A DNA stretch of 64,000 nucleotides from Aurantimicrobium photophilum (lineage in GTDB: Bacteria; Actinomycetota; Actinomycetes; Actinomycetales; Microbacteriaceae). A program made the position numbers and the translations under genes. Under the pieces are notes generated by a model. It worked only from the letters and a program-made list of their open reading frames with translations. It searched no databases and had not been told where the DNA came from. The stretch covers positions 1,178,001 to 1,242,000 of the forward strand of contig NZ_CP023994.1 of the NCBI RefSeq assembly GCF_003194085.1. The letters are read 5' to 3'. Of this stretch, positions 43,342-45,805 are shown piece after piece (position 1 is the stretch's first letter; every line of letters begins with the position of its first letter).

Positions 43342-43700
43342 GCGTGAGGGAAAGCCTGGCTCATGCGCACGGCAATGAGCTTCTCAATCAAAGCGTCTGG
43401 CACAGCCTTATCAATGGGGAATTGCACCCCACCACCCTTTTCAGAGACGACATAGCCAGCCAGGTCATCCATCATGACGCCAAAGACTTGCCCAGAGTGA
43501 GGGTAATAGCCGATGTGTTTCTTATACGAAGCAAAACCGGCAACAACCTTGCCGTTCACCCGGAAACCTGGCATTGCATAAGAAATGCACTGCTCCGCCT
43601 CTGGAATGACAGTCAGGATCTGTTTGCGTAAGTGCTCAAGCGTGGAGCGCTGAGGCTCTGGTTGCGCCGCAATATAGGCGTCAATTTCAGCCGTTGACAT
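43338..43700 (-). CDS. DUF1801 / YdhG-like protein
   Basis: A 120-aa protein with the DUF1801 pattern EQCISYAMPGFRVNGKVVAGFASYKKHIGYYPHSG and KGGGVQFPIDKAVPDALIEKLI. Members are linked to iron chaperone-like folds of unclear role. The start overlaps the DUF4287 stop by one base (TAATG), so the two small genes form an operon, with the DUF4287 gene first. Confidence 0.8.
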   Translation of the reverse strand: MSTAEIDAYIAAQPEPQRSTLEHLRKQILTVIPEAEQCISYAMPGFRVNGKVVAGFASYKKHIGYYPHSGQVFGVMMDDLAGYVVSEKGGGVQFPIDKAVPDALIEKLIAVRMSQAFPHA

Positions 43701-43909
43701 TAGAGACCGTTGTTTACGCGATAAACAGCAACAATCGCATTGGCGTGACCGTGACCCATGCCGTGTTCGGTCTTGAGGTAGTTCACCTGGTCCATGTGCT
43801 TCTGATCTTTCACAGCATCAAGCTGGCTCATCCAGTGATCAATGGGTTGACCATACTTCTTCTCGATCGAGGGGAAGTAGGAAGCGGGGCCTTGAACTTT
43901 TTCAGTCAT
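43700..43909 (-). CDS. DUF4287 protein
   Basis: A 69-aa protein: SYFPSIEKKYGQPIDHWMSQL and YLKTEHGMGHGHANAIVAVYR match DUF4287. Function unknown. The start is the ATG at 43907-43909; an upstream in-frame extension into the IS flank is not family-like. It is translationally coupled to the downstream DUF1801 gene. The IS3 element is inserted 48 bases upstream of it. Confidence 0.82.
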   Translation of the reverse strand: MTEKVQGPASYFPSIEKKYGQPIDHWMSQLDAVKDQKHMDQVNYLKTEHGMGHGHANAIVAVYRVNNGL

Positions 43910-43940: not shown

Positions 43941-43955
43941 AAGAAAGCCTCCGAA
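43941..43955 (-). terminator. Left half of a terminator split by the IS
   Basis: AAGAAAGCCTCCGAA, the exact reverse complement of 45390-45404. Before insertion it formed a 15-bp stem with loop TTAC, followed on the minus strand by a T-rich tract (complement of aaagaag). Confidence 0.85.
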
Positions 43956-43957
43956 TT

Positions 43958-43981
43958 TGAACTGAACCCCAAAAGTGGGAC
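43958..43981 (+). repeat. IRL of the IS3-family element
   Basis: tgaactgaacccc then aaaagt and gggac. The outer 13 and inner 5 bases match IRR exactly. Confidence 0.9.
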
Positions 43982-44018
43982 TCGTAATTAAGAGTCACTA
44001 CTTGAAAGGGATGAGTTC

Positions 44019-44495
44019 ATGAATGGCAAGGTTATTCATTCAATCGAAACCCGCATCGAAGCTGCAAAGCTTTTCGATGCGGGTTTTGGCTATAAAGCTG
44101 TTGCGGCGCATTTGGGGTTGAATCTGGATTCGGTCCGGCATTGGCAGGATCGTTATTTGCAGGGTCGACTTTTAGACTCAACAGTTATGGGAAAGAAGTT
44201 CTATCCGCCAGAGCTCAAGGTTGCTGCGGTTGAGAAGTTTCTTGCTGGCGCTTCAAAAACTGATGTTCTTGCCGAGTTTGAAATTTCTAATCGGGGCATG
44301 TTGACCAAATGGGTGTCGGCTTATCGCGAAGGCGGTCCTTCAGTTTTCTATGAGAAAGCTAAAGGGCGACCGCGGAAAGATTCTCGTCCGGAAACGCTTG
44401 AGGAACGGCTTGCGTTTTTGGAGATGGAGAACGAGATTCTAAAAAAATGGGTGGCTCTAGCCCAGGAGGAAGATCGACGTCTGTCCGGTCTGTGA
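44019..44495 (+). CDS. IS3-family OrfA
   Basis: A 158-aa DNA-binding subunit. Two helix-turn-helix units (ETRIEAAKLFDAGFGYKAVAAHLGLNLDSVRHWQ and PPELKVAAVEKFLAGASKTDVLAEFEISNRGMLTKW) precede a leucine-zipper-like coil (LEERLAFLEMENEILKKW), the IS150-subgroup layout. A7 at 44441-44447 is a -1 frameshift site into orfB. Confidence 0.92.
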   Translation: MNGKVIHSIETRIEAAKLFDAGFGYKAVAAHLGLNLDSVRHWQDRYLQGRLLDSTVMGKKFYPPELKVAAVEKFLAGASKTDVLAEFEISNRGMLTKWVSAYREGGPSVFYEKAKGRPRKDSRPETLEERLAFLEMENEILKKWVALAQEEDRRLSGL

Positions 44496-45358
44496 TTGTT
44501 ACTGAGTTAGAGCACAAATACTCCACACGAGCTGTTTTGAAGGCGGTGGGGTTATCTGTCTCCACCTACTATCGCCACCGCTCACAACCTGTTCCTCTCG
44601 ACCGTTATGAGCAGCTTCGTCCGCTGCTTCGTGAGGTCTTTGATGGTTCTTATCGTTCTTATGGTTATCGGCGCATTCGCGCCGTTCTTGCCACTAGACA
44701 TGGCATCCAGTTGAGCGGGAAGACGGTGTTGAAGTTGATGCGTCAAGAAGGCCGCACATGCCAAGTTCGAAGGCGCAAGAAATACAAGTCCTACAGGGGC
44801 GAGATTGGCAAGGCAGCGCCAAACGTGTTGGCAAGGAACTTTGATGCCGCACAGCCGTCGAAGAAATGGGTGACCGATGTCACTGAGTTTTATGTCCTGG
44901 GCCAGAAGCAATATCTCTCACCCGTGATTGATTTGTTTAACCGTGAAGTGATTTCTTATGAACTGGCACCATCACCAGTGATGGGTTTAGTCACAGGAAT
45001 GTTGGAGAAAGCCTTCACTCAGTTGAAACCTGGCACTGGGTTGGTGATGCATTCAGATCAGGGATGGCATTACCAACACATCAAATATCAACTCGCGTTG
45101 AAACAACGCGGCATCACTCAATCAATGTCACGAAAAGGCAACTGTCTCGACAATGCCGTTGCTGAGAATTTCTTCGGACACTTCAAAGAAGAATTCCTGC
45201 GTCAACACCACTTCACCAGCATGGGCCAGTTCAAGCGGGAACTAGAGAAATACATTCACTGGTTCAACCACGACAGGGTCCAGTTAAAGCTCAATGGTCT
45301 GAGTCCGGTTGACTACCGAACTCAGACCATTAGAGACTTGAAGCCGACTCCTCATTAA
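44447..45358 (+). CDS. IS3-family OrfB (DDE transposase)
   Basis: A 303-aa catalytic domain in the -1 frame relative to orfA. The DDE triad is visible in KKWVTDVTEF (Asp), VMHSDQGWHYQH (Asp) and AVAENFFGHFKEEF (Glu). HTH_21-like region YYRHRSQPVPLDRYEQLRPLLREVFDGSYRSYGYRRIR is present. The active OrfAB protein would arise by frameshifting; OrfB can also start at the ATG 44447. Confidence 0.93.
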   Translation: MGGSSPGGRSTSVRSVIVTELEHKYSTRAVLKAVGLSVSTYYRHRSQPVPLDRYEQLRPLLREVFDGSYRSYGYRRIRAVLATRHGIQLSGKTVLKLMRQEGRTCQVRRRKKYKSYRGEIGKAAPNVLARNFDAAQPSKKWVTDVTEFYVLGQKQYLSPVIDLFNREVISYELAPSPVMGLVTGMLEKAFTQLKPGTGLVMHSDQGWHYQHIKYQLALKQRGITQSMSRKGNCLDNAVAENFFGHFKEEFLRQHHFTSMGQFKRELEKYIHWFNHDRVQLKLNGLSPVDYRTQTIRDLKPTPH

Positions 45359-45360
45359 CT

Positions 45361-45384
45361 GTCCCAATAAAGGGGTTCAGTTCA
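45361..45384 (-). repeat. IRR of the IS3-family element
   Basis: Reverse complement reads tgaactgaacccc, then tttatt and gggac, pairing with IRL at the outer 13 and inner 5 bases. Confidence 0.9.
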
Positions 45385-45389
45385 ATTAC

Positions 45390-45404
45390 TTCGGAGGCTT
45401 TCTT
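45390..45404 (-). terminator. Right half of the terminator split by the IS
   Basis: TTCGGAGGCTTTCTT on plus, complementary to 43941-43955. It lies just after the minus-strand DUF2892-like gene, whose transcript it would have ended. Confidence 0.85.
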
Positions 45405-45414
45405 GAGGTTTTCG

Positions 45415-45627
45415 TTAGCGGCGGTTGTCGTTGCCGTTAAATCCGCGACCAAAGAGTGGCCCGAAGTAGCAGGTGTCAGAAGCACCAGCTGAAATGAGCA
45501 TGAGGCCGATAAAGAAGAAGATGGCGCCAATGGGACCCCAGGTGAGGGCAGCGATGACGAGAACGAGCCCCACAACGATGCGAGCCCAGCGACCGAAGGT
45601 CGATGACATAAATGCGGTGAAACCCAT
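45415..45627 (-). CDS. Small membrane protein, DUF2892/YgaP-like
   Basis: A 70-aa protein with two hydrophobic helices (WARIVVGLVLVIAALTWGP and AIFFFIGLMLISAGASDTCYFGPLFG), the DUF2892 pattern. AGGAG stands 6 bases before the ATG at 45625-45627. Its terminator was split by the IS, so its transcript may now read into the element antisense. Confidence 0.7.
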   Translation of the reverse strand: MGFTAFMSSTFGRWARIVVGLVLVIAALTWGPIGAIFFFIGLMLISAGASDTCYFGPLFGRGFNGNDNRR

Positions 45628-45805
45628 GATGACTCCTGTTCCTTGGGTATCTCCAGAATACTGCGAACAGAGCATTTAGCAGGGTCCTTACACAGGAGAA
45701 ATGCTCATTTCGACCGCTGAGCGGTCCAAAAACATAGGTGGCACTCAGCGGGCAGGAGGATACTGAAAGTGGATGAGGAACATCATCCAGAATGGGGAAC
45801 ACATC

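Follow-up and report, generated by a model that had tools for sequence, protein, structure and literature searches.

An IS150-subgroup insertion sequence in the loop of a terminator-type hairpin of Aurantimicrobium photophilum, and the insertion sites of its relatives

The element and the split hairpin

The window analysed here is a stretch of 64,000 nt from the genome of Aurantimicrobium photophilum (1.75 Mb, a single contig), and it contains an insertion sequence (IS) of the IS3 family, IS150 subgroup, of 1427 bp (43958..45384, plus strand). The element lies in the loop of a terminator-type hairpin, the left arm of which, AAGAAAGCCTCCGAA (43941..43955, 15 nt), and the right arm, TTCGGAGGCTTTCTT (45390..45404, 15 nt), now stand on either side of it. 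Insertion into hairpin loops is a property of the IS150 subgroup and not of sister IS3-type elements.

The two arms are 100% complementary across their 15 nt. When the element and one ATT were deleted in silico, a single 15-bp stem with a 4-base loop was obtained (-25.2 kcal/mol, minus strand; z = -7.1), and none of 200 shuffled sequences folded equally well; the preliminary description of this DNA, which placed the insertion exactly in the loop of such a hairpin, is confirmed in this respect. The rejoined stem has a GC-rich interior, and its outer part is rich in A on the left and in T on the right. The terminator had been assigned to the minus strand, where a T-rich tail is indeed found; because of the A-rich left and T-rich right outer arms, however, the hairpin reads as a terminator on both strands, and by its form it is a putative transcription terminator. 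The strict stem score of the site is 18.5, whereas among 12,427 background positions of the window (every fifth base, element excluded; stem centred within 6 nt) 1.0% have a score of at least 12 and 0.1% of at least 18. The hairpin at the insertion point thus exceeds chance.

A search of the genus for the sequence on the right side of the element gave a match in all eight genomes, that of A. photophilum included. An uninterrupted strong hairpin, with the downstream gene on its far side, is present at the same place in seven of seven congener genomes (G001-G007), as the preliminary description had anticipated for close strains; the stem sequence varies among the species and pairing is largely preserved. 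The hairpin is therefore old, and the element entered its loop later. The insertion now separates the arms by 1434 nt, so that the hairpin is unable to form normally. In a simple terminator scan of the region six weak terminator-like sites were found (2.7 expected), and those inside the element are weaker ones only; the earlier proposals of neutrality to the host and of self-termination find no support.

The borders of the element, with TG...CA ends, were taken from its six full-length copies in the genome, and the terminal inverted repeats were read in the sequence (left, TGAACTGAACCCC, 43958..43970, plus strand; right, the partner of TGAACTGAACCCC, 45372..45384, minus strand). The 3-bp target-site duplication ATT lies at the loop, as described earlier (left copy, 43955..43957; right copy, 45385..45387), and the A of its left copy doubles as the final base of the left hairpin arm. 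The element encodes OrfA (158 amino acids (aa); 44019..44495, plus strand), with tandem helix-turn-helix (HTH) regions predicted by Pfam (HTH_28/HTH_23 at residues 8-51, HTH_Tnp_1 at 59-138), and OrfB (303 aa; 44447..45358, plus strand), with the integrase core as identified by Pfam, NCBIfam and alignment. At the overlap of the two frames a run of seven A was read in the sequence (44441..44447, plus strand), which we take to be a -1 frameshift site, as is usual in the IS3 family. OrfB matches Pfam rve (2.4e-20) and NCBIfam transpos_IS3 (316.6 bits; cut-off 160), and its residues D144, D204 and E240, with DD(35)E spacing, are invariant across an 11-row alignment. The IS3-family assignment, made before from the sequence alone, is supported by these matches and by the DDE (Asp-Asp-Glu) core, the overlap of the two frames at a slippery A run, the TG..CA ends and a duplication in the range of 3-5 bp. 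The best named match of the transposase is that of Aurantimicrobium minutum (L037, 92%), and the site of this copy is the site of L012 in the congener genome G003.

Two hairpins are found inside the element. One, of 17 bp with one mismatch, lies within the 3' end of orfB (45293..45331), and similar hairpins are kept in many members of the clade beyond what the protein requires: for 62 distinct elements with the motif, the mean stem was 11.5 versus 5.4 for synonymous recodings, and for 43 of the 62 at most 5% of these were as good (25 rows were without a motif match). It is present in IS150 and ISKpn1 and absent in L268 and L318; it is absent also in five sister elements that have the motif. 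At another five loci, from sister elements or K-12, the motif was not matched. The other hairpin, of 18 bp, is located toward the 5' end of the orfA coding sequence (44044..44089), has a T-rich 3' arm ending in GGGTTTTGG, and is found also in the close relatives L004, L012 and L023; it is possibly an attenuator against read-through.

The hairpin split by the element stands just behind the stop codon of an upstream gene of 86 aa (45415..45675, minus strand), and a gene of 69 aa (43700..43909, minus strand) lies downstream; both were predicted as open reading frames and are supported by synteny in the congeners. The 69-aa product presumably resembles a DUF4287 protein.

Insertion sites of related and of sister elements

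The genome of A. photophilum carries six full-length copies of the element, i.e. the window element and its 83-93% relatives, all with TG..CA ends and with duplications of 3, 3, 4, 4, 4 and 5 bp, and three copies of a second IS150-type element (about 50% protein identity). Of these nine IS150-type copies, eight are inserted in the loops of strong hairpins (stem of at least 12, insertion-centred) versus 1.0% expected (binomial P about 9e-16), in line with the preliminary proposal that other copies be compared. Two near-identical copies of the second element (L009 and L021) are apparently inserted in the same terminator in two species; for L009, the duplication is absent and additional bases are found on the right side. 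The shared position may reflect either common descent or parallel insertion. As an internal control, the five IS481-family copies of the same genome were used (the two proteins tested gave 258.6 and 331.2 bits; cut-off 224). Three of these are located in plain sequence, one beside like sequence, and one abuts a tRNA-like 3' end; of the four copies that were scored none has a stem of at least 10, and two reach the maximum of 8.0. The copy at the tRNA-like 3' end (L189, near 304 kb) has CCCTAG beside the junction, a different target rule.

Relatives were gathered from the family (398 genomes), the phylum (396 genomes) and three other classes (321, 295 and 348 genomes), and from named genomes. 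Ends determined as the longest inverted repeat overran the flanks for L005 and L006, because a split hairpin lengthens the repeat; element ends were therefore set by tip patterns together with inverted repeats, with hairpins not used, and were checked by eye against the borders of multi-copy elements. A first set of 172 loci with a protein match yielded 62 distinct sites for which ends were determined and the flanks were clean, 59 of which were scored (L052 and L125 were dropped for doubtful ends, and L107 as the IS150 of Escherichia coli). A later set of 115 loci yielded 82 sites (32 loci were without recognisable ends, and one duplicate was lost), 81 of which were scored (L304, the ends of which scored weakly, was left out); it was scored after the pattern was known from the first set, and with a slightly wider end rule. 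The strict stem score allows the centre of the stem within 6 nt of the insertion, and random positions in the same flanks served as controls.

A stem of at least 10 was found at 40 of 59 sites of the first set versus 70 of 2360 controls (3.0%), and at 53 of 81 sites of the later set versus 58 of 3240 controls (1.8%); for a stem of at least 12, the numbers were 35/59 versus 18/2360 and 47/81 versus 16/3240, respectively. Both sets pooled, 93 of 140 sites have a stem of at least 10 and 106 a stem of at least 8, with most insertions within 2 bases of the loop centre, and a target duplication of at least 3 bp is present at 119 of the 140. With RNAfold, at least eight spanning pairs were predicted for 51/59 and 73/81 sites versus 407/1180 and 537/1620 controls; as a third of the random positions reach this number it is a poor discriminator, hence the use of the strict stem score. 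The habit extends over several bacterial phyla, and named hosts with sites scoring at least 8 include Neisseria weixii, Paenibacillus brasilensis, and metagenome-assembled genomes of a Chitinophaga and a Clostridium. When only the borders of multi-copy elements were used, without the inverted repeats, the same picture was seen by eye for several elements, including some with unusual tips, and two phage-borne copies (L317, L318; unscored) appear by eye to lie between terminator-like arms.

Three further observations concern individual genomes. In G1611, three copies (L282, L285, L286) lie, by eye, in apparent members of one repeated palindrome, so repeated palindromes also serve as targets. A longer IS150-like type in G794 (L165; 1.67 kb, 226-aa OrfA with three HTH_28 stretches) has a hairpin loop as its scored site. 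On contig C8 of G791 (Cytobacillus), neighbouring copies form pairs separated by 1.5-3.6 kb (near 579, 1656, 2426 and 2591 kb), which suggests either a tandem arrangement or that one site was used repeatedly.

Of 18 genomes with IS150-type elements that were searched, four also contain sister elements of the IS3 family, recognised by ends of the TGGATCGG and TGAATCG types. From 39 places, 30 control loci were obtained and 22 were usable; two were excluded for N in a flank, three for lack of clean ends, one as a single copy, and two (L352, L361) as ungrouped. None of the 22 sister sites has a stem of at least 10 and one has a stem of at least 8 (Fisher's test against IS150-type sites, P = 7e-10 and 1e-10, respectively), whereas the IS150-type sites of the same four genomes have a stem of at least 10 in 10 of 16 cases (G788, 2/4; G791, 1/2; G1730, 4/5; G1611, 3/5). 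Genome G1611 alone carries ten usable sister copies, none in a hairpin (highest stem score 6.5), and the K-12 sites of IS3 (two) and IS2 (one) have stem scores of only 5.0-5.5.

In an OrfB tree, a single group of 66 rows comprises IS150, ISKpn1 and almost all of the elements scored, with a support of 95 in the Shimodaira-Hasegawa-like approximate likelihood-ratio test (SH-aLRT); the tree was built quickly and contains some long branches, and its deep order is therefore indicative only. All clusters of scored elements except L198 are in this group, and IS2, IS3 and the sister elements are outside. Three rows stand just outside the group, among them L198, the site of which is without a hairpin, and L101 (see below). 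The OrfA frame, which begins close to the left end, is 155-195 aa long at 123 of the 140 clade sites (nine shorter, eight longer) versus 93-99 aa in four sister elements. Of the ten clade OrfA scanned with Pfam, eight have HTH matches in at least two regions, as does the OrfA of the window element; six of six controls (93-121 aa) have them in one region. The window element, with an OrfB that groups with IS150 and a long two-HTH OrfA, belongs to the IS150 subgroup.

Target properties and candidate explanations

The 93 targets with a stem of at least 10 share a form and little sequence. Their eight inner stem positions carry 0.01-0.23 bit each, yet pair in 87-96% of cases; the high pairing is partly forced by the choice of stems of at least 10, the absence of a consensus is not. 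An inner-stem sequence motif was hence rejected (at most 0.23 bit per inner position), and the targets are not one repeated palindrome family, for their inner stems share almost no sequence. At positions 9-15, 52-66% of the bases are A at the left and 52-66% are T at the right, and most of the sequence signal comes from these A/T flanks, where each position 9-19 nt away from the loop carries 0.2-0.55 bit. At least five T in eight bases stand beside 97 of the 106 target hairpins with a score of at least 8, and for stems of at least 12 a T-rich tail is found at 93% of the targets versus 35% of flanking hairpins of equal strength. At 88 of the 106 sites, a reading frame of at least 90 codons stops no more than 120 nt away, on one side or on both; 35 sites lie between convergent genes, and 18 are without such a gene. 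A link between the length of the duplication and the length of the loop was tried and rejected (Spearman -0.05, P = 0.68).

No significant bias of the element was found with respect to terminator direction at these 106 sites (T tail 17 with the element, 13 against, 76 undecided; P = 0.58), to gene direction (a single adjoining gene 28 with, 25 against; P = 0.78), or to the replication fork (34 codirectional versus 28 head-on for 62 copies in 14 genomes; P = 0.53). For the last, dnaA was taken to mark the origin and the terminus was assumed to lie opposite; the test is coarse, as 53 of the 62 copies are from one class (that of G788), some copies are near-identical, and single genomes are skewed (G1730, 5 to 0; G1611, 1 to 5). 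Such symmetry is more readily reconciled with a DNA cruciform, or with some other symmetric target, than with docking on polymerase or the use of a single strand.

Most probably, the IS150-subgroup transposase targets DNA hairpin loops by their structure, with intrinsic terminators as the main natural target. The transposase would pick its target by shape and join the element ends into the loop of a DNA hairpin. The transposase complex may meet an extruded or breathing hairpin, e.g. a cruciform, that is read as DNA, and the joined ends would then attack both strands at the loop with a stagger of 3-5 bp on or beside it. The preference could be given by the extra (second) HTH region of OrfA, which would recognise the hairpin; it is proposed for this role because it was found in most of the clade OrfA scanned and was absent from the controls. 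As intrinsic terminators are common, long, GC-cored, A/T-flanked intergenic hairpins, most copies would land there, in either orientation, and genes would mostly be spared.

Several observations weigh against this interpretation. The placement in loops, its spread through the clade, its absence from sister elements and the ancestral empty sites are read directly from the sequences, and these data do not separate DNA structure from another symmetric feature as the thing that is read. About a third of the sites have a stem below 10 (19/59 in the first set, 28/81 in the later set), several of which look by eye like bulged or long-loop hairpins. A copy identical to that of the window (L001) is located near the start of a coding gene, at a weak hairpin with six perfect pairs (strict stem score 8.5; 4-bp duplication), and another copy (L098) by eye adjoins a terminator-like hairpin instead of occupying its loop. 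The E. coli IS150 copies analysed are not in terminator loops, and a plasmid copy of ISKpn1 is without a clear hairpin. Two of the ten clade OrfA (L008, L221) have a single HTH region. The element L101, outside the 66-row group, looks hairpin-flanked by eye; the boundary of the trait is thus not fixed, and a group outside the clade may share the habit in part. Further, the preference for T tails could partly be a loss of insertions within genes.

A first alternative is that a dimer of the transposase reads the symmetric pattern of A-rich flank, GC core and T-rich flank in the duplex, with no extrusion. The A/T flanks, as the main sequence signal, speak for it, and the inner stem, which is nearly without consensus and yet pairs, speaks against it; we consider this rather unlikely. 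Docking of the transposase on RNA polymerase that is paused or released at terminators, which the excess of T tails over background hairpins would favour, is unlikely: the orientation of the element is not significantly biased with respect to the direction of terminators or genes, E. coli IS150 copies are found at long-loop hairpins in hok leader regions, the copies L282, L285 and L286 use a repeated palindrome (by eye), and the relatives IS1397 and ISKpn1 use repetitive extragenic palindromic (REP) sequences, according to the available part of PMC1525189.

Hairpins form readily on single strands, and some other IS families take a single-strand route; use of the hairpin when it is formed on the lagging-strand template at the replication fork is very unlikely here, however, in view of the lack of a significant fork bias, with the terminus assumed opposite dnaA, and of the duplications of at least 3 bp at most sites, as double-strand targets predict. 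Survivorship, i.e. insertion anywhere followed by the loss of all copies but those at harmless intergenic positions, many of which are terminators, agrees with the frequent gene ends near the sites but is scarcely credible and was rejected as the sole cause, since sister elements in the same genomes gave 0/22 versus 10/16 for IS150-type copies, the scored IS481-family copies stay at or below 8.0, and selection for intergenic positions cannot yield insertions mostly within two bases of the loop centre.

A wider form of the structure-guided reading is possible but doubtful. In this form, the whole IS150 subgroup would consist of structure-guided transposases with a duplicated-domain OrfA that reads an extruded hairpin of any sequence, terminators would be the safe sites, and the orfB 3' hairpin would be part of the same system, e.g. 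as a control site for transposase binding.

IS3-family elements are among the commonest bacterial transposons. If targeting of hairpin loops by structure, chiefly at terminators, is true, it would explain how the IS150 subgroup multiplies in small genomes without killing them, the natural outcome of loop targeting being a safe landing place behind genes; next landing sites would become predictable, the borders of elements could be checked in genome annotation, and a designed hairpin could direct the transposase to any chosen site. The manner in which a DDE enzyme recognises such a loop would also become accessible to experiment.

Comparison with known systems

IS150 of E. coli and ISKpn1 belong to the same transposase clade as the window element and have the same type of ends, with 3-bp duplications in several copies, and the OrfA of IS150 has two HTH regions as does that of the window element. 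At nine of ten E. coli IS150 loci, an annotated gene of the hok family is found no more than about 150 bp away; the tenth (L315) adjoins glyS, a position at which hokA is present for other copies. Among the ten, the element is located at the edge of a long-loop hairpin at four loci (L308, L310, L311, L313) and at the foot of a hairpin at one (L309); such long-loop hairpins may be why hok loci are hit by IS150. Five of the ten are without a duplication and may be rearranged.

Group IIC introns also use terminator stem-loops as targets, inserting beside rather than in the loop; they are retroelements with unrelated machinery. Among titles and abstract openings in the open-access literature (subscription papers and preprints excluded), no report of IS3/IS150 elements in terminator loops was found. 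The IS1447 subgroup of Firmicutes comprises IS150-like IS3 elements, as the window element is; the paper on it concerns transcriptional slippage, and its available part makes no mention of hairpins as targets (PMC6211511).

The elements IS1272 and TnSha1 of the IS1182 family reportedly have hairpin targets without primary-sequence specificity; five of these (hairpins A to E) were confirmed as transcription terminators by RNA-seq, and the cut is blunt, with part of the stem-loop deleted and no target duplication (PMC4923244, in the part available). The window element has a transposase of another family, and here both arms are preserved, with a duplication of 3-5 bp at the loop. An IS1182-type identity was rejected, as the best families are IS3 models and no IS1182 model was among the matches listed, and in view of the duplication and the whole arms.

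The IS3-family elements IS1397, ISKpn1 and ISPsy8 target REP sequences (palindromic units), and for IS1397 and ISKpn1 the choice of target is attributed to the transposase (PMC1525189, available part). They are like the window element in family and in their insertion into palindromes; their targets are repeated families with a consensus, whereas those of the window type are mostly unrelated terminator-type hairpins. ISKpn1 stands next to IS150 in the tree, so that the targeting of REP sequences may be one particular form of hairpin targeting. The preliminary description, which held that a few IS3-family members target palindromes, was right as to the palindromes and understated the scope, for the habit is spread through the IS150 subgroup: what is new is a broad variant of a known, hairpin-directed insertion.

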